NCBI GenBank assembly: GCA_018223125.1 | Contig: JAAEZA010000009.1 | Location: forward strand, 1 to 64,000 | Origin: Paracoccaceae bacterium | Lineage (GTDB): Bacteria; Pseudomonadota; Alphaproteobacteria; Rhodobacterales; Rhodobacteraceae | Direction of reading: 5' to 3' | DNA: 64,000 nucleotides | Part shown: one piece after another, positions 10,838 through 35,845 of the stretch | Layout: the number at the start of each line of letters is the position of its first letter | How positions within the stretch are numbered: position 1 is the first letter of the stretch | Notes under the pieces: generated by a model | Told to the model about the DNA's origin: nothing | The model's database searches: none | The model's input: the letters and a program-made list of their open reading frames with translations, nothing else | Program-made: the position numbers and the translations under genes

Positions 10838-12937
10838 CTATTCACCGATCTGCGCGACGGTTTTCAGTTTGGCCTTCCAGTGGATTTCCGAGAATGACAG
10901 GATGGGTGTCATCGGCGCGATCCGTTCCAGCATGGACCGTATAATCGGGCGGTATTCGGGGCTGACAACAAGGGCGGGCCATTCGTCCTTTGCCGCATAA
11001 GCCTGAAGCACACCGCGGGCAGCACGGCCGAATTCCTGCACTTTGGCGGGTGGCATTGTGCAGGTGGTATCGTCGCCCTGCACTTTTACGGTGCTGGCAA
11101 ATTCCTGCTCCCAAGTGCCGCCAAGCGTGATGGTCTGGATAAATCCGTCTGCCCCTTCCTGTGATTTGCAAATCTGCGCAGACAGGGCCTTGCGAACCTG
11201 TTCGGCTACAAGTGTTGCATTTGTGGTCGCTGTAGAGGCTTCGGCGATAGTTTCTGCGATCAGGGGCAGGTTGCGCACAGAGACCCGTTCGGACAGCAGT
11301 TTGCGCAACACATTGCGGAACAGGATCACAGGCGTCGGGGTCGCGATGTCCTGAATAAGCTTGCGATAGGCCGGATCAAGGCTGTTCAACAGTTCCCGTG
11401 CCACGCCGTATGTCATCATTTCGGGCATGTTCTCTTTCAGCGTCTCGGTCAGATGAGTGACGATCACGCTTTCAGGATCAACCACGGTAAAACCGGCGGC
11501 TTCCGCTTCGGGTGCAGAGGCGGTGTCGATCCAGACGGCGGGCAGGCCGAAGGTTGGCTCCTTGACCCGTTCGCCGGAGAGCATTGTGCCTTCACCCGCC
11601 GGATCAATCACCAAGCGGCTGCCCGGGCGCAGTTCCCCTTCGGCCACCTCAACCCCTTGAACCTTAACAACATATCCTTTGCTGTTGGAAATATCGCCGT
11701 CCTTGATCCGCACAGGCGGGAGCAGAAAACCGTACTCGCGCTGGAACATGTCCCGCAAGCTTTTGATCTTGCCGGGCAGGGCGGCTGTGTCGTTGTTCAG
11801 CATTACGATAAGGCTGCGCCCCATCTCCAGCGTTACAGTGTCGATACCGGCAGTGGCTTCGGGTTCGACAGCTTCTTTGGCGGCTTCGGTCTTTTCCATT
11901 TCCGTCGCAGTGGCCAGATCGGCCCGTTGGGTTTCGCGGGAATAAAGACCGAAGGCTACCAGAACCGCGGCCACAATCGCAAACAGCAGGAATGGAAAGC
12001 CCGGCAACAGGCCCATGAGAAAGGTAAGCGCCGCCGCGACAAACATCGCTTTGGGATTGCCCGAAAGCTGGGTGGTCACAGCCTCGTTTGCGGCCCCGAC
12101 CGTGGCGCCTTTGGTGACAATAATGCCTGCGGCAATGGAAACGATCAGGGCGGGGATCTGTGTAACCAGCCCGTCGCCAATCGTCAGGACCGTAAAATTG
12201 TGCAGCGCATCGGACACATTCATTCCGTGGCGGGTGATGCCGATAAGGATGCCGCCAACCACATTGATCAGGGTGATGATAATGCCTGCAACTGCATCTC
12301 CCCGAACAAACTTCGCAGCACCGTCCATCGCGCCGAAGAAGCCGCTTTCGTCTTCAACTTCCTTGCGGCGCGCGCGGGCTTCCTGTTCGTTAATCATCCC
12401 CGCGCCAAGGTCGGCATCAATAGCCATCTGCTTGCCCGGCATCGCATCCAGAGAGAACCGCGCGGCAACTTCTGCAATGCGGGTAGAGCCTTTGGTGATA
12501 ACGATGAAATTGATTGCCACAAGGATGCAGAACATCACTGTCCCGATAACATAATCGCCCCCGACCACAAAATCGGCGATACCCTGAATAACGTTGCCCG
12601 CCGCATCTGTGCCGGTCTGCCCTTCGGACAGGATCAACCGCGAAGAGGCCACGTTCAGCGACAGCCGCATCATGGTGACGATCAGCAAAAGCGTGGGGAA
12701 GCTGCTGAATTCAAGGGGTTTTCGCACCCAAAGCGCCACCATGAGAACCAGTACAGACACGGAAACAGACAGTGCGAGCCCGATGTCGAGAAGCATGGCC
12801 GGAAGCGGCACAAAAAGGATCGCCAGAACGGTACAGATCGCAATCGCAAAGGTGACATCCCGATGCTGGGACATGATCCCCATGCGGGCTGCGAAACGAT
12901 CAAGGACAGTCGGCTTCTGCCGGTCTGCTTGTGCCAT
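10838..12937 (-). CDS. flhA: flagellar export gate protein FlhA
   Basis: 699 aa; FHIPEP-type sequence MAIDADLGAGMINEQEARARRKEVEDESGFFGAMDGAAKFVRGDAVAGIIITLIN. Confidence 0.97.
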   Translation of the reverse strand: MAQADRQKPTVLDRFAARMGIMSQHRDVTFAIAICTVLAILFVPLPAMLLDIGLALSVSVSVLVLMVALWVRKPLEFSSFPTLLLIVTMMRLSLNVASSRLILSEGQTGTDAAGNVIQGIADFVVGGDYVIGTVMFCILVAINFIVITKGSTRIAEVAARFSLDAMPGKQMAIDADLGAGMINEQEARARRKEVEDESGFFGAMDGAAKFVRGDAVAGIIITLINVVGGILIGITRHGMNVSDALHNFTVLTIGDGLVTQIPALIVSIAAGIIVTKGATVGAANEAVTTQLSGNPKAMFVAAALTFLMGLLPGFPFLLFAIVAAVLVAFGLYSRETQRADLATATEMEKTEAAKEAVEPEATAGIDTVTLEMGRSLIVMLNNDTAALPGKIKSLRDMFQREYGFLLPPVRIKDGDISNSKGYVVKVQGVEVAEGELRPGSRLVIDPAGEGTMLSGERVKEPTFGLPAVWIDTASAPEAEAAGFTVVDPESVIVTHLTETLKENMPEMMTYGVARELLNSLDPAYRKLIQDIATPTPVILFRNVLRKLLSERVSVRNLPLIAETIAEASTATTNATLVAEQVRKALSAQICKSQEGADGFIQTITLGGTWEQEFASTVKVQGDDTTCTMPPAKVQEFGRAARGVLQAYAAKDEWPALVVSPEYRPIIRSMLERIAPMTPILSFSEIHWKAKLKTVAQIGE

Positions 12938-17546: not shown

Positions 17547-17592
17547 GGTTTACGTCTCCGAAGTATGTCTTGGCACAAGCATAGGTTATTTC

Positions 17593-17607
17593 TTTTTTTC
17601 GCAAAAG
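17593..17607 (-). promoter_or_regulatory. TTGCGAAAAA-type flagellar motif upstream of motA
   Basis: Reverse strand CTTTTGCGAAAAAAA. Confidence 0.5.
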
Positions 17608-17678
17608 ATGCAGCTTGCGAGAATGCGAATTTTATTATAATTTTTCAGACATTCTCGAACCAGAATTGGACCTGTAAG

Positions 17679-18659
17679 GTGAGTGTTAACGTAAAGACCC
17701 CCTTCATTCGATTGTTCGAGAATTCCGAGATTGTCCAAAACTTTGAATGGCCCGAAGAAGTCGCTCTGGCTGTGGTGGTCAGGGACGGGCGTATCGTACA
17801 GATGCAGCCTTATCACGACGGAGAAAATCCGGCCGGTGTCGTCGCCCGACTGCAAGCTCTGGAACAGGTTCGGGTGCCACAAACACTCGCGGTCTATCCA
17901 CGGCTGGAAGGCTACCCCGAGATCGACATGGGGTTTTCCGAAGATATTGTGCTTCTCTCCGGAATAGAAACAGCCCTGAACCTGCCGGATTCCGAACTGC
18001 GCGAAGAAATCGAAAACTTCGTGGTGAATTTCGAATTTGCGCGGGACATGGGGATTGCGATGCCGCAGGCGGCAACACCTGCTGACGTTACCCCTGTGAA
18101 AGATACCCCCGAGGCGGCGCATCCGGCCCCGACCAAACCCACCCAGAATGCACAAAACACACCTGCCGTGCCGCAGGGGTTTGTGCCTTTGGACAGTGTC
18201 GCGCCGGCGCAGTCATATCTGGAGGGCGTCCACTACAGCCAATCCGCAAAAGGTGAAGCGGTTTTGACCCTTGCGGCCAGCGGTCCGACAGTCTCGCTGA
18301 GCGAAGGGGATATTCTGCTGCGGGAAGACCGGACAGGTTTTGCAATCTCTGCCTCGGTGTGCATTGCGAACAACCGGCCGGTAGCAGAGATCCGGCTCCC
18401 TTCTGCCTTTATTCCGGTAAGCCTTGTCCCGACGGGTGCAACCGTACATCCGGTTGTCTCTGAATCCGGCGGGCTGGTGTACGTTACCTTTACCGGCGGG
18501 CCGGTGGTTTCGAAATCCCACAAGATCCTTGCCGGACTTTTTGCAGCTTACTTTTTCGCAACAGTGGTGTTCTTCGGGTTCTGGACAACCGGCAGCTTTA
18601 TCAATCCGGATAATCCGGAAGGGACTGTGGACGCTTTGCGTAACGAGCTGTTCAAGTAA
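17679..18659 (+). CDS. uncharacterised flagellar-cluster protein with C-terminal TM segment
   Basis: About 326 aa from a GTG start; C-terminal hydrophobic ILAGLFAAYFFATVVFFGFWTTG; no recognised family. Confidence 0.6.
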   Translation: MSVNVKTPFIRLFENSEIVQNFEWPEEVALAVVVRDGRIVQMQPYHDGENPAGVVARLQALEQVRVPQTLAVYPRLEGYPEIDMGFSEDIVLLSGIETALNLPDSELREEIENFVVNFEFARDMGIAMPQAATPADVTPVKDTPEAAHPAPTKPTQNAQNTPAVPQGFVPLDSVAPAQSYLEGVHYSQSAKGEAVLTLAASGPTVSLSEGDILLREDRTGFAISASVCIANNRPVAEIRLPSAFIPVSLVPTGATVHPVVSESGGLVYVTFTGGPVVSKSHKILAGLFAAYFFATVVFFGFWTTGSFINPDNPEGTVDALRNELFK

Positions 18660-22363: not shown

Positions 22364-24097
22364 TCAGTCGGACGTGTTTAACGCCGCAACCGCCTCAAGA
22401 GCCGATGTGGCCCGCTCAACAATCCCGCGTGCAGCTTCTACCGAAAGCGGGGAGATTTGGGGCGCTTCTGCGGCCCGGATGGTGGTGAGCCGCGCCACTT
22501 TTTCGCGCGAGTCGCCGATAAGACTTTGCAAGTAGCCGGATACATCGGACTGCCCGCGGGCAGCTGCGATGCGGGCGGCGTGAATACCTTCTGCGGATGG
22601 CAGCGCGCCCGCCCGCGACAGGGCGGAAAGTGCTGCGTCCTCATTGTTTTTGCTTAAGGCGTAGCGTCCGATTTCAAGTGAAACCGTCGCGTCGCCTTCG
22701 TTTGCCGGTGTGCCGCCGGCCAAAAGTTCAATTTTCGCAAATTCTGGATCAAGGTCTTTCACGCGTTCCACCGGACGGCGGGCGATCGAATTTCTTGCGG
22801 CAGCAGGTATATCTTCCCGCTGATACCGCCTTGCCTGTTCCAGCAACAACCGGTCCAGCAGGGCAGGGGAGATTTCGGCTTGCTCTTGTTCCAGCAACCC
22901 GTCCCAAATATCTGCGTATTCAGCTTCGGCAGCGACCGTCAGCCCCGCCCGCGCGAAACGTCCGGCCAGAGCACCGCGAACCTCTACCCGCTGTGTATGG
23001 GCGCTCATGTAAGGTTCAAGACGTCGCACCATGGCCAGAGAGTCCGGCAGGCTCATAGCGTCTGCCTCGATCGCCTCTGCCATTTGACCCAATATCACGG
23101 CGATCCGTCGTTCTGCCAATTCTGCTTCGGGTGTTTCGGGGTGGTCGGCGTGCAGTGATGCCATGGAAATGATTGCGGTTTCCGCATCCCCGAGATCTTC
23201 GGAAACCCGCGCCAGCAAGGCGCGCATTCTCAGCGCCAGCGCGTCGCCGCGCCAGCGGGCCAGGCCTTCTACCAGAAGATCCCGCACACGTTCCCGCACC
23301 GCGCGATCGGGGTTTTCAAGCGCCATATTGGCCAGTTCGATCCGCGCCTGTGCTGCTGCGCGGTCCTGATGCTCTGATGCCCAGGCAAAAAAATCAAAGG
23401 CATTCTGGTTTTGCCGTTCTGCGCGCGCCAGAAGACCGCGCATCAGCAGCATCTGTGATGTTCCGGCAAGGTCTGTACCCATTTCCGAGGCATTTAGAAG
23501 GCTTCTTGCAAAATCCAGATCTTTATTCGCAACTGCTGCATCAAAGAGCACCGGCACAAGGCGACCGGCGACTGCCGGACTGTGCCGCTCGAGCCGTGTG
23601 GACGCAGACCGCAGCAAATCGGTTTCAACAGAATCGCCCGCCGACAAACCGGCTACAACCGACCACACAGGATCCAGTCGCAGGGCCGCCGGAACCTCTC
23701 TATCTGCCGTTCGATCGCCGGAAAGGATGTCAATCATGGCCAGATAAGCACGCGCGCGTTCGCTTTCATCCTGCGTGGCACCGTTAAGACTGTATTCTAC
23801 TAAATCTTGTGCTTCGGGAAGCATCATCCAGCTGATAAGGAACTGGGCATAATCCAGTGCTGCTGTCGAACGTCGGGCCGGTTCAGCAGTCGCAAAATTT
23901 GCTGAAAAAGCCTGCTGTGCCGTATTAAACTGTGTGTTTTCAAAGCGTGTGTCGAGTTGAGACTCCGGAAGGGGCGGCATTTCTGCCTCTATATGTTGTG
24001 GTGTTTCATCCGCTGCATACGCAGGGTAGGATAGCGCCCCGATCAGCCCCGCCACAACCGCAACCAGCCCGAAAAACCGTCGGGCGGTAAATATCAT
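22364..24097 (-). CDS. uncharacterised exported helical-repeat (TPR-like) protein
   Basis: Signal peptide MIFTARRFFGLVAVVAGLIGALSYPAYA (start moved to 24097), Ala/Leu-rich helical repeats. Confidence 0.6.
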   Translation of the reverse strand: MIFTARRFFGLVAVVAGLIGALSYPAYAADETPQHIEAEMPPLPESQLDTRFENTQFNTAQQAFSANFATAEPARRSTAALDYAQFLISWMMLPEAQDLVEYSLNGATQDESERARAYLAMIDILSGDRTADREVPAALRLDPVWSVVAGLSAGDSVETDLLRSASTRLERHSPAVAGRLVPVLFDAAVANKDLDFARSLLNASEMGTDLAGTSQMLLMRGLLARAERQNQNAFDFFAWASEHQDRAAAQARIELANMALENPDRAVRERVRDLLVEGLARWRGDALALRMRALLARVSEDLGDAETAIISMASLHADHPETPEAELAERRIAVILGQMAEAIEADAMSLPDSLAMVRRLEPYMSAHTQRVEVRGALAGRFARAGLTVAAEAEYADIWDGLLEQEQAEISPALLDRLLLEQARRYQREDIPAAARNSIARRPVERVKDLDPEFAKIELLAGGTPANEGDATVSLEIGRYALSKNNEDAALSALSRAGALPSAEGIHAARIAAARGQSDVSGYLQSLIGDSREKVARLTTIRAAEAPQISPLSVEAARGIVERATSALEAVAALNTSD

Positions 24098-24156
24098 TCG
24101 GTGGTGGGCAAACTGATGCACGGATTTACCAGCCCTTTTTCCGGTATCTTTTTTAA

Positions 24157-24184
24157 TTTTTCGCATTTCTAGGGTATGCGAAAA
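24157..24184. promoter_or_regulatory. divergent inverted pair of flagellar motifs
   Basis: TTTTTCGCAT-N9-ATGCGAAAA perfect inverted repeat between 22364-24097(-) and flgF(+). Confidence 0.6.
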
Positions 24185-24260
24185 CACAACATAATGTATA
24201 GTTTATGATGTTGGCACAGATCAACCAGAAATAATCACCCGTTACGGAGACCTGCATCTT

Positions 24261-29357: not shown

Positions 29358-30014
29358 TTACTCGATCTTGACGATCTCTCCGCTACTGGCTTCCAAACCG
29401 TTTTCAAGGTTAAGCAGTTGCGCGCCGCCCACATAGGACACCGAAGCGACCCGATCGCGGATGTAAGTGTTGTACCCGCCTGTCGCATCCTGCGCAGCCA
29501 TCGAGATGGTGTAAATCCCCGCCGGCAACAGGATGCCGCTGTCGTCGAGCCCGTCCCAGGACACCTCATGTAACACAGCCGCAGTTCCCGGCAGGTCTTC
29601 GATCAAGCGCAAGACATTCCCGTCCGCATCACTGATTATCGCAGTCGCAGAGGTCGCTTCTCCCTCAATCTCATAGCTGAAGGTTACGGGAGTTCCGCTT
29701 GCATCCAGTTCGACCGCGCTGGCCGGAACGGTGACTGTACGACCGATCAGTGTAGCTTCGGACATGGAAGCCGTCATCGCAAGCGTGGAGCGCAACTGCT
29801 CCAATTGGGAATTCGTATTCACCGTCTGCTCCACTTGGGTCAGGGTGGCGATTTGCGAGATAAATTCGGTCGCATCCAAAGGCTCCAACGGATCCTGATT
29901 CTGGACCTGCGCCACCAGCAGGTTCAGGAAGGTCTCGTAATCGTCGGAAAGTTGGGACAGGGAGCTTTCCGCTGTCCCTGTGACCGATGCGCTGGAAATG
30001 GATGTAATGCTCAT
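29358..30014 (-). CDS. flgD: hook cap protein FlgD
   Basis: DYETFLNLLVAQVQNQDPLEPLDATEFISQIATLTQVEQTVNTNSQLEQL. Confidence 0.95.
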   Translation of the reverse strand: MSITSISSASVTGTAESSLSQLSDDYETFLNLLVAQVQNQDPLEPLDATEFISQIATLTQVEQTVNTNSQLEQLRSTLAMTASMSEATLIGRTVTVPASAVELDASGTPVTFSYEIEGEATSATAIISDADGNVLRLIEDLPGTAAVLHEVSWDGLDDSGILLPAGIYTISMAAQDATGGYNTYIRDRVASVSYVGGAQLLNLENGLEASSGEIVKIE

Positions 30015-30026
30015 ATCTGTGACCTG

Positions 30027-31697
<1,671 letters not shown>

Positions 31698-31699
31698 TG

Positions 31700-32428
31700 T
31701 CAGTTCTCCGAATTCATGAAACCCGCTGTAACGCCACGTTTCAGCAAGAAGGACCTCATGCGGGATCTTGCGCGTTGTTCAATTTTTCGCATTTTTTCGG
31801 GCGAAATGTCAAGCCTGGCAGCCACTTCATCTACCGGTTCTTCTTCAAGGAAACGGGCACGAATGATTTCCGTTTCTTCCGCATTCAGAGCCTTGACCGC
31901 AAGTTTGATCATACGTGCCGAATGCTCGGCTAAATCTTTGTTAACTAACGAAGATTCCGCAGTGCAGCTTGGCTGGTCGCTTGTCGTTTCGAACATATCA
32001 TCAATATCGGAAACATATTGCGCCTCTCGCACCAAGGCGGCTTCGGGTGCGGCCATCCGGCCATTTCTTGCATTGCGCAGGTGCAGTTCGGGAATATCGA
32101 CCAGTTGCGACAGAAAATCGGCCTCCCGCTGCATGGAAGATCGAACAAACATTTTCGCATATGCAAAAAACGGCACGCCGGGTATTGGCACATAGTTTGA
32201 CAGGGATTTCAGCATCGCCTCGACACCGGCCGAAACAAGATCGTCTTGCAGTTCCCGTGAGCGCGCCATACTTCGCGCCATGGACTGAACCTTGGACAGG
32301 TTTTCCGTTACAATTTGCGTCAGGGTTTGCGGGTCATAAGTGACCGCATGCGCCCTGAGGCATCCATTAGTTTCGCCACCATCATTGCCTGAAACAATCG
32401 CGGCGCTATCCCGCATGTGCTTGCCCAA
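31700..32428 (-). CDS. sigma-70 family RNA polymerase sigma factor
   Basis: Region-2-like LQDDLVSAGVEAMLKSLSNYVP...FFAYAKMFVRSSMQREA and region-4-like LNAEETEIIRARFLEEEPVDEVAARLDISPEKMRKIEQRARSRMR. Confidence 0.85.
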   Translation of the reverse strand: MGKHMRDSAAIVSGNDGGETNGCLRAHAVTYDPQTLTQIVTENLSKVQSMARSMARSRELQDDLVSAGVEAMLKSLSNYVPIPGVPFFAYAKMFVRSSMQREADFLSQLVDIPELHLRNARNGRMAAPEAALVREAQYVSDIDDMFETTSDQPSCTAESSLVNKDLAEHSARMIKLAVKALNAEETEIIRARFLEEEPVDEVAARLDISPEKMRKIEQRARSRMRSFLLKRGVTAGFMNSEN

Positions 32429-32668
32429 ATTCTTTATCGGGTGCTTTCAGAAAACCCGCCTGCGCGGAAATCTCCCGTAGCACCGTACCCTTTGACCTCA
32501 TGCCGGGCGGATGTTTCCGCCCGATCGTTGTATTTCCCCCATGATTGGAGGTGTATTTTTGAAATTGGGCTATTTTATGTTTTTTCGCAAGTCTTATGGA
32601 ACTACGTTAGCCAAATAGAACCATTGGCAAAATGGTCACAACGGGCAAAAGCAGGACATCAGGCGATT

Positions 32669-33574
32669 ATGATTTCGAACCATGACAACCATGCCATCAT
32701 AATAAAAAGGCCGAAAAAAGCGGTGAAGGGCCATCACGGCGGCAACTGGAAGGTGGCCTATGCGGATTTCATGACCGCGCTTATGGCATTTTTCCTTCTG
32801 CTGTGGATTCTGTCAGGATCAGACGAAGAGCAACTTCGCGGTCTTGCGGATTATTTCACACCGGCGGCAGTGCCGTTGGTGGAAATCAGCGGCATCGGGA
32901 CAGAGATCACCGCCCGTAAGGAGCCTGAAAGCGAGCTGGATCCCGTGGCGGCCTCCACCCCGACCGGCCCGCAAGAAGTCGGCCCGATGGACGAAGATTC
33001 TTCGGAAACCCGCACGGGTGCGGTTAATCCGTGGCTTGAACTCGATCAGGAAACAACCAAGCCCGAAGAAGAGGCTGAACAAACGCTTGAACACCAATTG
33101 GCCGCGGTGCAATCCCAGATCGAGGAAAGCTTTGCTACGACGCCGGAACTTGAAGCCCTTTCCGACAATCTGATGGTTTCTCTCAAAGAAGACGGGATGA
33201 CCGTGGAAATCATCGACCTTGGCGAACGTCCGATGTTTGACACAGCCAGCGCCCGACCCAGCGAGGAACTGCTGGACATTCTCGCAGAACTGGCCCCGGC
33301 CATCGCAGAACTGCCGCTTGAAATCCGTATCACAGGTCATACCGACGCCCATCCGTTCCGCAGTGCGGACGGATACGGGAACTGGGAACTGTCGACCGAT
33401 CGCGCCAATGCCATGCGCCGCGCCATGCTGGACGAGGGGATAGCCGCCCACCGGATCGTAAGCGTTGCCGGTGTTGCAGCAGCATCGCCGTTGATAAAAA
33501 CGGATCCCAAAGACGCCCGCAACCGGCGCGTTACCATAGATCTGACCCTTCCGCCGCAACAATGGACCGAGTGA
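32669..33574 (+). CDS. motB: flagellar stator protein MotB
   Basis: GNWKVAYADFMTALMAFFLLLWILSG plug/TM and OmpA-like ITGHTDAHPF...NWELSTDRANAMRRAM; start at MISNHDN. Confidence 0.93.
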   Translation: MISNHDNHAIIIKRPKKAVKGHHGGNWKVAYADFMTALMAFFLLLWILSGSDEEQLRGLADYFTPAAVPLVEISGIGTEITARKEPESELDPVAASTPTGPQEVGPMDEDSSETRTGAVNPWLELDQETTKPEEEAEQTLEHQLAAVQSQIEESFATTPELEALSDNLMVSLKEDGMTVEIIDLGERPMFDTASARPSEELLDILAELAPAIAELPLEIRITGHTDAHPFRSADGYGNWELSTDRANAMRRAMLDEGIAAHRIVSVAGVAAASPLIKTDPKDARNRRVTIDLTLPPQQWTE

Positions 33575-33793
33575 TTCACCGGTCTTAGATCTGTGAAATA
33601 AGAAATCAAACTCTAGCTTTTCAGCAATTTTCTGCCTTATCCTGAAGCGCGGACGGCATCGTTGCGCCTGAAATCAGACAGTGGCATTTTAAAAGCCGAA
33701 TCCATTTTTACCTATAAAAAGCCTAAGTTTGACCGCAATTACTGGCTTAAAACCGCCCACAGCAACGGATTTCTCCGATTTGCTTGAATAGTG

Positions 33794-33808
33794 TTAACTT
33801 CGAATTAA
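33794..33808. promoter_or_regulatory. CtrA-type box TTAA-N7-TTAA
   Basis: gTTAActtcgaaTTAAt: exact full-site spacing. Confidence 0.65.
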
Positions 33809-33847
33809 TATCCTATCAGTTTGATGTGAGCTGAAAAAGGCAAGCGC

Positions 33848-33934
33848 ATGAAAAGCAGTAAGATTTCAGAAATTTTCGACTGCTGCCAAAATGCGCAGAT
33901 GCAGGGTGCGAATTATCGTTGCGGACTTGAATAG
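33848..33934 (+). CDS. putative 28-aa leader peptide MKSSKISEIFDCCQNAQMQGANYRCGLE
   Basis: ATG-to-TAG short ORF between the CtrA box and the 34025 gene; weak RBS; unproven. Confidence 0.3.
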   Translation: MKSSKISEIFDCCQNAQMQGANYRCGLE

Positions 33935-33935
33935 A

Positions 33936-34020
33936 ACGGGCCTACCCGAGAGAGGTTGCAACGACCCGAGTAATGAGTGGCTGTATATCCCTGTTTTTAG
34001 GGGTCGTGCGGAGGAAGACA
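33936..34020 (+). promoter_or_regulatory. structured 5' leader with alternative pairings over the RBS region
   Basis: CGGG-CCTA-CCCG; ACGACCC(33961-33967)/GGGTCGT(34001-34007); competing CCCT(33989-33992)/AGGG(33999-34002); RBS GGAGGAAG follows. Confidence 0.45.
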
Positions 34021-34024
34021 GTTT

Positions 34025-35845
34025 ATGTCGTTAGAAAAAAAGAATCCCGATTACAACGTGGATGTCGCGTCTCCGACCGCTGCGGCCGCCAACCGGTTGC
34101 GCTTTGATGTGGAAGAAATCACACCGGATATTGCCGCACGTATGCTGGAGCAGGGCGTCAGCCGGCCGCCTGACAGCAAGGCCGTCGCCACTTATGCGCA
34201 AGCAATGGAAAACGGCGCGTGGATATTAAACGGCCAGCCCGTCATTTTTGACGAAGAAGACCGTGTTATTGACGGCATCCAACGTCTGAACGCCTGTATC
34301 AAGGCGAAGACCCCGTTCAAGACCATCGTCGCACGGGGGGTGCGCGCGGATACCCTGCACACGATCGACCAACATCGTCGCCGGTCCTATCCCGGCATTC
34401 TGGAAAGCCGTGGCATCCGCGAAGCTGGCAAGGTCCAGCGGACCATGTCCAAGCTGATCCGTATAGAAAACGGAAGTCTCGGACGTGAAAATCCGCCGAT
34501 CAGCTACTCCCGATATGATCGTGTTCTGGATGCAAATCCCGAAATTCTGGAAGCGCGGGACATATCCGAAAAAGTGCGCGGCACACGTTTGCACTCTACG
34601 GCGCGCCCCGTCCTGATCTACATGGCGCTGCGCGCCGGTCATAAGGCGGAATTGATGAGCTTCCTGCGAGAGCTTGGCCCGAACGCCACCTCCGGTCTGG
34701 ATTCACCGCCCGGAATGTTCAGCATGCAGACCAGCATTCTGGAACAGAACGGCATGGGCCTGAATGTTGATGAAATCCTTGCTTTGGCCATACTGGCCTT
34801 TAACGACCACATCGAAGGCAAGAAGGTATCCAGAAACTACATCTGGAAAAAAGATTTTGGCGACACGCCTTTGGATGAACACGGACAACCGCTGAGCAAG
34901 GCCGCGCTGGTTGCGCAGGCTCCGCCCAATCTCGGGTTGCCGACCATGACAGGCTATCCCGGCTTGCGGGAAGGGCGGTATGACACTTTTTCCGAAACTG
35001 ACGAATTTGGCGGGCGCACGGACGAGCAGGTAAAACGGGGCGCGGAAACAGACAACGGCGTCGAGCAAGTCAAAATGATGACCGTAACCCCAGACATGGC
35101 GCGGGACTGGTTGCGGTTCAATACCGGAAACCGCGAAATCCAGAAAAACCATATCGCGATGATCAAGCGCGATATTCTGAGTTCCAACTGGATGATGAAC
35201 GCGCAACCCATCTGCTTCACCGAAAATCCCTTGGTGCAGGACAACAGCAAAGCACCGCGTCTGCTGAACGGGCAACACAGGTTGCACGCCATAATAGAGG
35301 CCGATACCGCGATTGATGTCCCGATTGCGACCGGAATTCCCGAACAGGCCTTTGCGACTTTTGACACTCACGCCAAACGGACGGTCCGGCGCGCAGGGAA
35401 TCGGGTGGACGACCGTGTTCTTGCGGCCGCGGCCAAACTTCAGTGGAAACAGGACAACGCCCTGCCGTTGACCGGATCGGGCAACAGCCCGTCAGCGACT
35501 GAAATCCTCAACACTTTGAAAGACCACCCAGATCTTGCGGCCGGTTTCTCCCGGTCTCGCCGCAGCGGTATGAAGGAGCTGGGGTCTGCGGGGGTGATGA
35601 CCTATTTCATTTATCGTGTGCAACGGGATCACAATGAATGGGGCGCCGAGTTTCTTGACGGGATCGAATACGGCACGAATCTTGAACGCGGCGATCCGGT
35701 TTTGAACCTGCGCAATCTGGTGCGGGGGCGCCGAAAATCCCTAAGCCGGCGCGAAACGCTGACCCTTCTGATCGAGCATTGGGAGGCGTATAAGGACTGG
35801 AAAGCTAAGCAGACAAACAAGAAAGAACATCTGAAGATTATCTGA
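34025..35845 (+). CDS. tandem ParB-like-domain protein
   Basis: Two internally homologous segments: ITPDIAARML...NGQPVIFDE...IDGIQRLNA...IDQHRRRS and VTPDMARDWL...MNAQPICFTE...LNGQHRLHA...FDTHAKRT. Confidence 0.65.
   Translation: MSLEKKNPDYNVDVASPTAAAANRLRFDVEEITPDIAARMLEQGVSRPPDSKAVATYAQAMENGAWILNGQPVIFDEEDRVIDGIQRLNACIKAKTPFKTIVARGVRADTLHTIDQHRRRSYPGILESRGIREAGKVQRTMSKLIRIENGSLGRENPPISYSRYDRVLDANPEILEARDISEKVRGTRLHSTARPVLIYMALRAGHKAELMSFLRELGPNATSGLDSPPGMFSMQTSILEQNGMGLNVDEILALAILAFNDHIEGKKVSRNYIWKKDFGDTPLDEHGQPLSKAALVAQAPPNLGLPTMTGYPGLREGRYDTFSETDEFGGRTDEQVKRGAETDNGVEQVKMMTVTPDMARDWLRFNTGNREIQKNHIAMIKRDILSSNWMMNAQPICFTENPLVQDNSKAPRLLNGQHRLHAIIEADTAIDVPIATGIPEQAFATFDTHAKRTVRRAGNRVDDRVLAAAAKLQWKQDNALPLTGSGNSPSATEILNTLKDHPDLAAGFSRSRRSGMKELGSAGVMTYFIYRVQRDHNEWGAEFLDGIEYGTNLERGDPVLNLRNLVRGRRKSLSRRETLTLLIEHWEAYKDWKAKQTNKKEHLKII

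Follow-up and report, generated by a model that had tools for sequence, protein, structure and literature searches.

What does a protein made of two diverged ParB-like units do beside a flagellar gene cluster? The question is raised by the 64,000-nucleotide stretch of DNA analysed here (hereafter the window; contig JAAEZA010000009.1 of a bacterium of the Paracoccaceae), in which an initial annotation, made from the letters alone, had placed a 606-aa open reading frame with two ParB-like copies, one of them thought degenerate, and had called it a candidate for an uncharacterised system. The open reading frame is present where it was placed, and our analysis suggests that its product is probably an uncharacterised switch controlling flagellar clusters, rather than the product of a defence or partition gene. 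The gene, its two lobes and their motifs are as follows.

34025..35845, + strand: gene of the two-lobed ParB-like protein, 606 aa (open reading frame with an ATG start; internal repeat, E 8e-10; PHROG 5931 matched twice, E 2.9e-74; dN/dS ~0.04)
34097..34849, + strand: N-lobe, residues 25-275, a ParB-like domain and a basic helical domain (PHROG 5931 over lobe positions 2-246, E 7.9e-33; all N-lobes in one clade, support 1.0)
34229..34240, + strand: box I-like motif of the N-lobe, N69-G70-Q71-P72 (all 29 orthologues keep N69 and P72)
34271..34288, + strand: phosphate (GxxR) motif of the N-lobe, D83-G84-I-Q-R87-L88 (D, G, R and L invariant in 29 orthologues)
35057..35833, + strand: C-lobe, residues 345-603, a ParB-like domain and a basic helical domain (PHROG 5931, E 8.1e-40; AF2 pLDDT 88.5; top Foldseek matches ParB, Noc and KorB)
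35198..35212, + strand: box I-like motif of the C-lobe, N392-A-Q-P-I396 (invariant in 29 orthologues)
35267..35284, + strand: phosphate motif of the C-lobe, N415-G-Q-H-R419-L420 (invariant in 29 orthologues)

The gene is real and under strong purifying selection, with dN 0.008 and dS 0.203 against the 98%-identical orthologue of Amylibacter cionae, and dN 0.033 and dS 0.454 between two Maritimibacter orthologues. BLASTP of residues 1-300 against 301-606 aligns 32-121 with ~354-453 at 27% identity (100 aa; E 8e-10), and the local alignment of the two halves scores 105, where 500 shuffles average 34.4 (sd 5.2) and reach 66 at most; this bears out the claim of two diverged copies. These had been drawn at about residues 25-130 and 350-470; the homology stands, and the extent does not. 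A profile built from either lobe matches almost the whole of its counterpart (residues 25-260 and 347-603), so that the repeat unit comes to ~245 aa, and the duplication includes the helical part as well as the ParB-like ~100 aa in both copies. The helical domains of the two lobes are basic, with pI values of 9.3 and 9.8.

The first copy had been called degenerate, and the motifs tell otherwise. We take the N392-A-Q-P-I396 motif of the C-lobe to resemble the QPI loop of ParB. Every lobe compared, whether N-lobe (34/34), C-lobe (34/34) or single-lobe relative (13/13), has the GxxR phosphate motif (box II), the form of which differs between the lobes, the N-lobe signature being DGxQRL and the C-lobe signature NGQHRL; both are strict in the 29 closest orthologues (alignment A1) with one exception, an N-lobe in which the second residue before R differs. 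In a survey of the ParB fold, mutants in which the R of GxxR is changed to A served as the non-binding control (PMC12704722). The idea of one active and one degenerate lobe therefore fails, because GxxR is found in every lobe examined and D83-G84-x-x-R87-L88 is invariant in 29/29 orthologues; as judged from the alignments, two differing sites, both conserved, would fit better than a degenerate first site.

Structural modelling agrees with the ParB/Srx-type fold that had been guessed for the protein. AF2 gives a full-length model of moderate quality (pLDDT 74.7, pTM 0.45), with CDP-bound ParB as its best PDB match (E 0.02) and matches to phage ParB-like or 'HTH' proteins down to E 1.4e-10, while a model of the C-lobe only, for which 39 lobe sequences were used, is of good quality (pLDDT 88.5, pTM 0.78). 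All of the top 12 PDB matches of the C-lobe in Foldseek are ParB, Noc, KorB or PadC and cover most of the lobe, with probabilities of 0.92-1.00, E values of 0.007-0.16 (none at or below 0.001) and TM scores of ~0.3-0.5; Srx is matched only at E > 1. Given these E values and TM scores, the models support the fold and general layout at the level of the ParB-CTPase (ParB/Srx) fold, not of detail. Searches of PDB sequences with the protein returned chance matches only. Pfam detects no classical HTH in the two-lobed protein and the Foldseek E values are marginal, so the case for DNA binding is made from weak structural similarity together with charge.

Family models place the protein outside the families they describe. 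Pfam and NCBIfam give no match to the 606-aa protein even at E 10, ParB and HTH models included, and their DndB/DGQHR family models do not match it either. The PADLOC models of anti-phage defence are silent at E 10 as well, and no defence neighbours were seen, which sets aside the defence role at which the initial annotation had hinted. PHROG 5931, a phage family whose function is not assigned and on which we found nothing in the literature, matches each lobe separately over its whole length; the view that the protein belongs to no known family holds. Its relatives in 77 phage records and on plasmids are single-lobed in the records opened, and Pfam supports no extra domains in the phage relatives; a scan of IMG/VR with the full protein returned no relatives, although tblastn finds the single-lobe ones of phages. 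The tree of lobes groups all N-lobes together (support 1.0) and all C-lobes likewise (0.997), with the single-lobe proteins between them. Because each kind of lobe forms one group, the two-lobed form would most simply have arisen once, before its spread, the lobes having been separate ever since; its origin may lie in a tandem duplication or in the fusion of two related genes.

In the window, motB and the flagellar cluster lie upstream of the gene and a DeoR-type regulator lies downstream, as had been described. The features of this neighbourhood are listed here.

10838..12937, - strand: flhA, the basis for typing the cluster as fla2 (59% to FlhA of Marinovum algicola DG898 pMaD5)
29358..31697, - strand: flgD and fliK (Pfam FlgD, E 9.6e-20; Flg_hook, E 3e-4)
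31700..32428, - strand: sigma-70-type factor of the flagellar cluster (Pfam Sigma70_r2/r4), with a counterpart in the fla2 reference cluster
32417..33574, + strand: motB, the adjacent flagellar gene (Pfam MotB_plug and OmpA)
33575..34024, + strand: 450-nt intergenic leader from motB to the gene, presumed promoter/operator, of lower G+C in the sequence (dip to 0.456)

What had been called the gene's own regulatory leader is just this intergenic stretch, in which a promoter scan found no sigma-70-like promoter and Rfam gave no match. In locus L003, which is near-identical, motB is not in frame with the first ~70 codons of the listed motB open reading frame, and the true motB start probably lies downstream of the listed start. 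The flagellar cluster (1-33574) begins at the contig edge, with flaF at ~161; no FlgI matching the Acetobacteraceae query used below was found in the window, and it may lie beyond the contig end. Two open reading frames inside the cluster, 17565-18659 and 22364-24187, have no Pfam match, and the latter has a weak match (27%) in a hypothetical gene that occupies the corresponding position on pMaD5, the fla2 reference plasmid.

Does the link to flagellar genes extend beyond the window? The gene is rare in Rhodobacterales: in a sample with roughly one genome per genus, 1 of 348 has it, and within the window's genus two do. Its orthologues nevertheless have a recurrent flagellar-cluster context, so that the gene is not the stand-alone one it was taken for: in the window and in loci L003, L004, L005, L010, L012 and L025 it flanks a flagellar cluster or is part of one. 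In the window and the first three of these loci it stands at the cluster end, an internal segment being inverted between lineages; in L010 it lies between the fliF-fliM-fliN-fliP-fliG genes and an OmpR-type regulator together with motB-fliK-flgD; in L012 it adjoins motA, with the whole cluster on the same contig; and in L025 it lies behind motB. The cluster of L004 is in a 4.7-Mb chromosome. By its FlhA, the window cluster is closest to the fla2 reference pMaD5 and distinct from fla1. FlhA of the fla2 type (54-60%, with a cut-off of at least 54%) occurs in 8 of 120 sampled genomes, nearly all others reaching at most 44% and one giving a partial match at 48%, as against 8 of the 11 other Rhodobacterales genomes with the two-lobed gene (Fisher p 1e-6). 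None of the eight sampled fla2 genomes carries the two-lobed gene, which is also absent from the published reference plasmid pMaD5. Because most sampled fla2 clusters are without it, the gene is an accessory of these clusters, not a core member, and is not essential for fla2 motility. In L006, L007, L008 and L011 the gene was not seen beside flagellar genes, and some of the surroundings are plasmid-like; the last three genomes have no fla2 FlhA, and that of L006 has it on another contig. Among these loci (L006/L043, L007/L044, L008/L045 and L011/L047), an SNF2-type helicase adjoins three and a topoisomerase lies near two. An alignment of the DNA upstream of the Rhodobacterales orthologues revealed no shared motif.

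A second set of flagellar clusters carries the gene in Acetobacteraceae. Roseomonas marmotae and Pseudoroseomonas cervicalis have it on plasmids, inside the cluster, with flagellin-flaF-flbT-bactofilin on one side and flgI-flgL-flgK on the other; on a Rhodovastum plasmid the flagellin/flaF/flbT/bactofilin side alone was seen next to it, and in L013-L030 the same gene order recurs wherever there is enough sequence. Of 298 Acetobacteraceae genomes, 244 have an FlgI, which is of this cluster's type in just 12 (at least 66% identity, range 66-99%, with the next best at 60%). All 12 have a strong match to the two-lobed gene, which is so matched in 13 genomes in total, the thirteenth having it on a 3.3-kb contig; the hypergeometric p for this co-occurrence is 1.6e-20, for genomes that are related and not phylogenetically independent. 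In 12 close orthologues a conserved element precedes the gene, and it occurs once only in each locus.

L013-L018, L021, L026, L029, L030, L040 and L041 (e.g. L041:14766), upstream of the gene: TTTTTGC-N14-GCGAAAAA element

In most of the 12 loci TAAACG comes next; the more distant orthologues L023, L024, L027, L028, L036 and L042 are without the element, which could serve another factor. Fla2 clusters are reported to spread by horizontal transfer and to be often plasmid-borne (PMC12363192). The gene recurs in horizontally moving flagellar clusters across Rhodobacterales and Acetobacteraceae, and we found no paper that treats ParB together with a flagellar gene cluster and Rhodobacteraceae.

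Two-lobed proteins that are more diverged, in Acetobacteraceae and in genome G592, are found in polysaccharide clusters with exosortase, polysaccharide export and glycosyltransferase-like genes. A small XRE-type HTH gene lies near the two-lobed gene in eight of these loci (L037, L050, L052, L113, L114, L115, L116 and L118). In three, the two-lobed module is part of a longer protein.

L113:9408-12452, L117:2566-5583 and L118:7179-10220: two-lobed module fused to GAF and HisKA_2, in exosortase/polysaccharide clusters

Pfam detects GAF and HisKA_2 in L113 and L117, and L118 is near-identical to L117, the C-terminal half of which aligns with ordinary histidine kinases. A small response-regulator (receiver-domain) gene adjoins all three fusions, and the protein of L115 has the two lobes and GAF only.

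The ParB fold, two intact phosphate motifs, basic helical domains, genomic contexts and upstream element together lead us to propose a cluster switch. The protein would be a single-chain 'pseudo-dimer' of two ParB-type units, each with a helical domain after its nucleotide-binding domain; its ancestors would be single-unit proteins like those of phages and plasmids, and it would belong to horizontally mobile flagellar clusters, of the fla2 type in Rhodobacterales and of a distinct type in Acetobacteraceae. Each lobe would bind nucleotide and the basic helical domains would bind DNA, possibly with the geometry of a clamp, and the bound state would set the expression of the flagellar cluster. 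That a single-chain pseudo-dimeric ParB-fold switch regulates the surface-structure cluster that carries its gene is the reading we prefer, and it seems to us about evenly balanced between right and wrong. We hold more tentatively, and with some doubt, the wider claim that such proteins make up a hitherto overlooked family of asymmetric ParB-type clamps, each a single chain whose two nucleotide sites are not equivalent; they would be private switches travelling with horizontally transferred flagella or polysaccharide clusters and would also be wired into histidine kinases.

The kinase fusions lend themselves to a different explanation, in which the lobes are a nucleotide-sensing signalling module with no DNA binding of its own and report an NTP or other ligand to a kinase or response regulator, the kinase partner of the flagellar version being a separate protein. 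The joining of lobes to GAF and HisKA_2, the kinase-like half of L117, the response-regulator genes beside the fusions and the OmpR-type regulator beside the L010 gene all speak for it. However, the flagellar versions have no kinase domain, the helical domains are basic, the lobe resembles the N and M domains of ParB, and a kinase fusion could also add a sensor to a DNA-binding module; we consider this explanation unlikely. It is improbable that the protein maintains or positions the replicon or locus with the flagellar cluster, as an orphan ParB with a centromere-binding or anchoring role: the fold is that of ParB and many such clusters are plasmid-borne (fla2: PMC12363192), but chromosomal clusters have the gene too (L004), pMaD5 is without it, and no convincing open frame with a ParA-like deviant Walker-A motif turned up in a crude pattern test of ~8 kb flanks at ~45 loci. 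The last result, together with the lack of a ParB or HTH model match, argues against a ParABS partition role, in line with the earlier view that this is not ordinary partitioning.

Might the protein instead be a ParB/Srx-superfamily enzyme, a small-molecule kinase like SerK or SbnI, or a nuclease, that modifies some part of the flagellum or envelope? Its DG-x-QR and NGQHR motifs are like those of DGQHR and DUF262 proteins (PMC4619093), and SbnI unites kinase and regulator roles, as summarised in PMC9641203. We give this little credence, as the similarity of the whole lobe is to ParB, Noc and KorB and not to Srx, and histidine kinases are the only catalytic domains found fused. Chance lodging of phage-derived cargo at flagellar clusters, with no role there, would accord with single-unit relatives that are phage and plasmid genes of unassigned function and with the plasmid-like or non-flagellar surroundings of L006, L007, L008 and L011; it is very improbable in view of the strong purifying selection, a linkage that persists through several cluster arrangements and a co-occurrence that is complete in one cluster type.

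How does the proposed cluster switch compare with known systems? The phage proteins of PHROG 5931, labelled 'ParB-like nuclease domain' in actinobacteriophage records, share the full-lobe match and retain GxxR; they differ in having one lobe, mostly a DGQHR motif and a phage or plasmid context, and none was in a flagellar context in the records viewed. KorB, a ParB-family regulator, is a homodimer, as are Noc and chromosomal ParB. Constructs of their N-domain and middle domain resemble most of a lobe in our models, whereas the two-lobed protein has two unequal units in one chain, with no ParA found and no Pfam match. If the proposed reading is true, this would be a ParB-type switch in one chain with two unequal sites, in which the clamp mechanism becomes testable lobe by lobe. 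DndB, an ATP-dependent transcriptional repressor (PMC12704722), and the other DGQHR and DUF262 (GmrS) ParB-fold proteins have a DGQHR/DGQQR-type P motif (PMC4619093) like that seen here, but their family models do not match the two-lobed protein and no dnd or HNH partner was seen. The 2025 survey of PMC12704722 reports many orphan ParB-fold members without assigned roles, and its domain-fusion analysis was based on PF02195; since the two-lobed protein does not match PF02195, the survey may have missed this family. The fla2 clusters of Rhodobacterales (PMC12363192) are of the same type as the window cluster by FlhA, and the main text of that paper does not mention ParB; the proposed switch, if true, bears on the question raised there of how two flagellar clusters are coordinated in one cell.

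Two further parallels to the proposed regulatory role are single-unit proteins. EdeB, a ParB-family activator of the edeine cluster (PMC9641203), is a regulator situated in its own cluster, a role that we propose by analogy for the two-lobed protein; EdeB is a single unit of 256 aa from Bacillota, in a secondary-metabolite cluster. VirB of Shigella, a transcriptional antisilencer with a CTP-dependent switch shown by experiment (PMC10770331), is an orphan ParB-fold protein that controls secretion-apparatus genes of the replicon on which it is itself encoded. NTP-switched DNA binding would, on this analogy, be common to both, although VirB is one unit and the two-lobed protein has two units, no Pfam HTH and is known here from sequence and models. 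If the proposed reading is true, it would show how a flagellar cluster moving between species can bring its own regulator, and the kinase fusions would give a direct link of the ParB fold to two-component signalling. Precedents for orphan ParB-fold regulators that are carried along with their target genes exist in VirB (PMC10770331) and EdeB (PMC9641203); new here, and unmentioned in the main texts searched (supplements and subscription papers lay outside the search), are the fused pair of unequal units, its association with flagellar clusters and the histidine-kinase fusions of its relatives.
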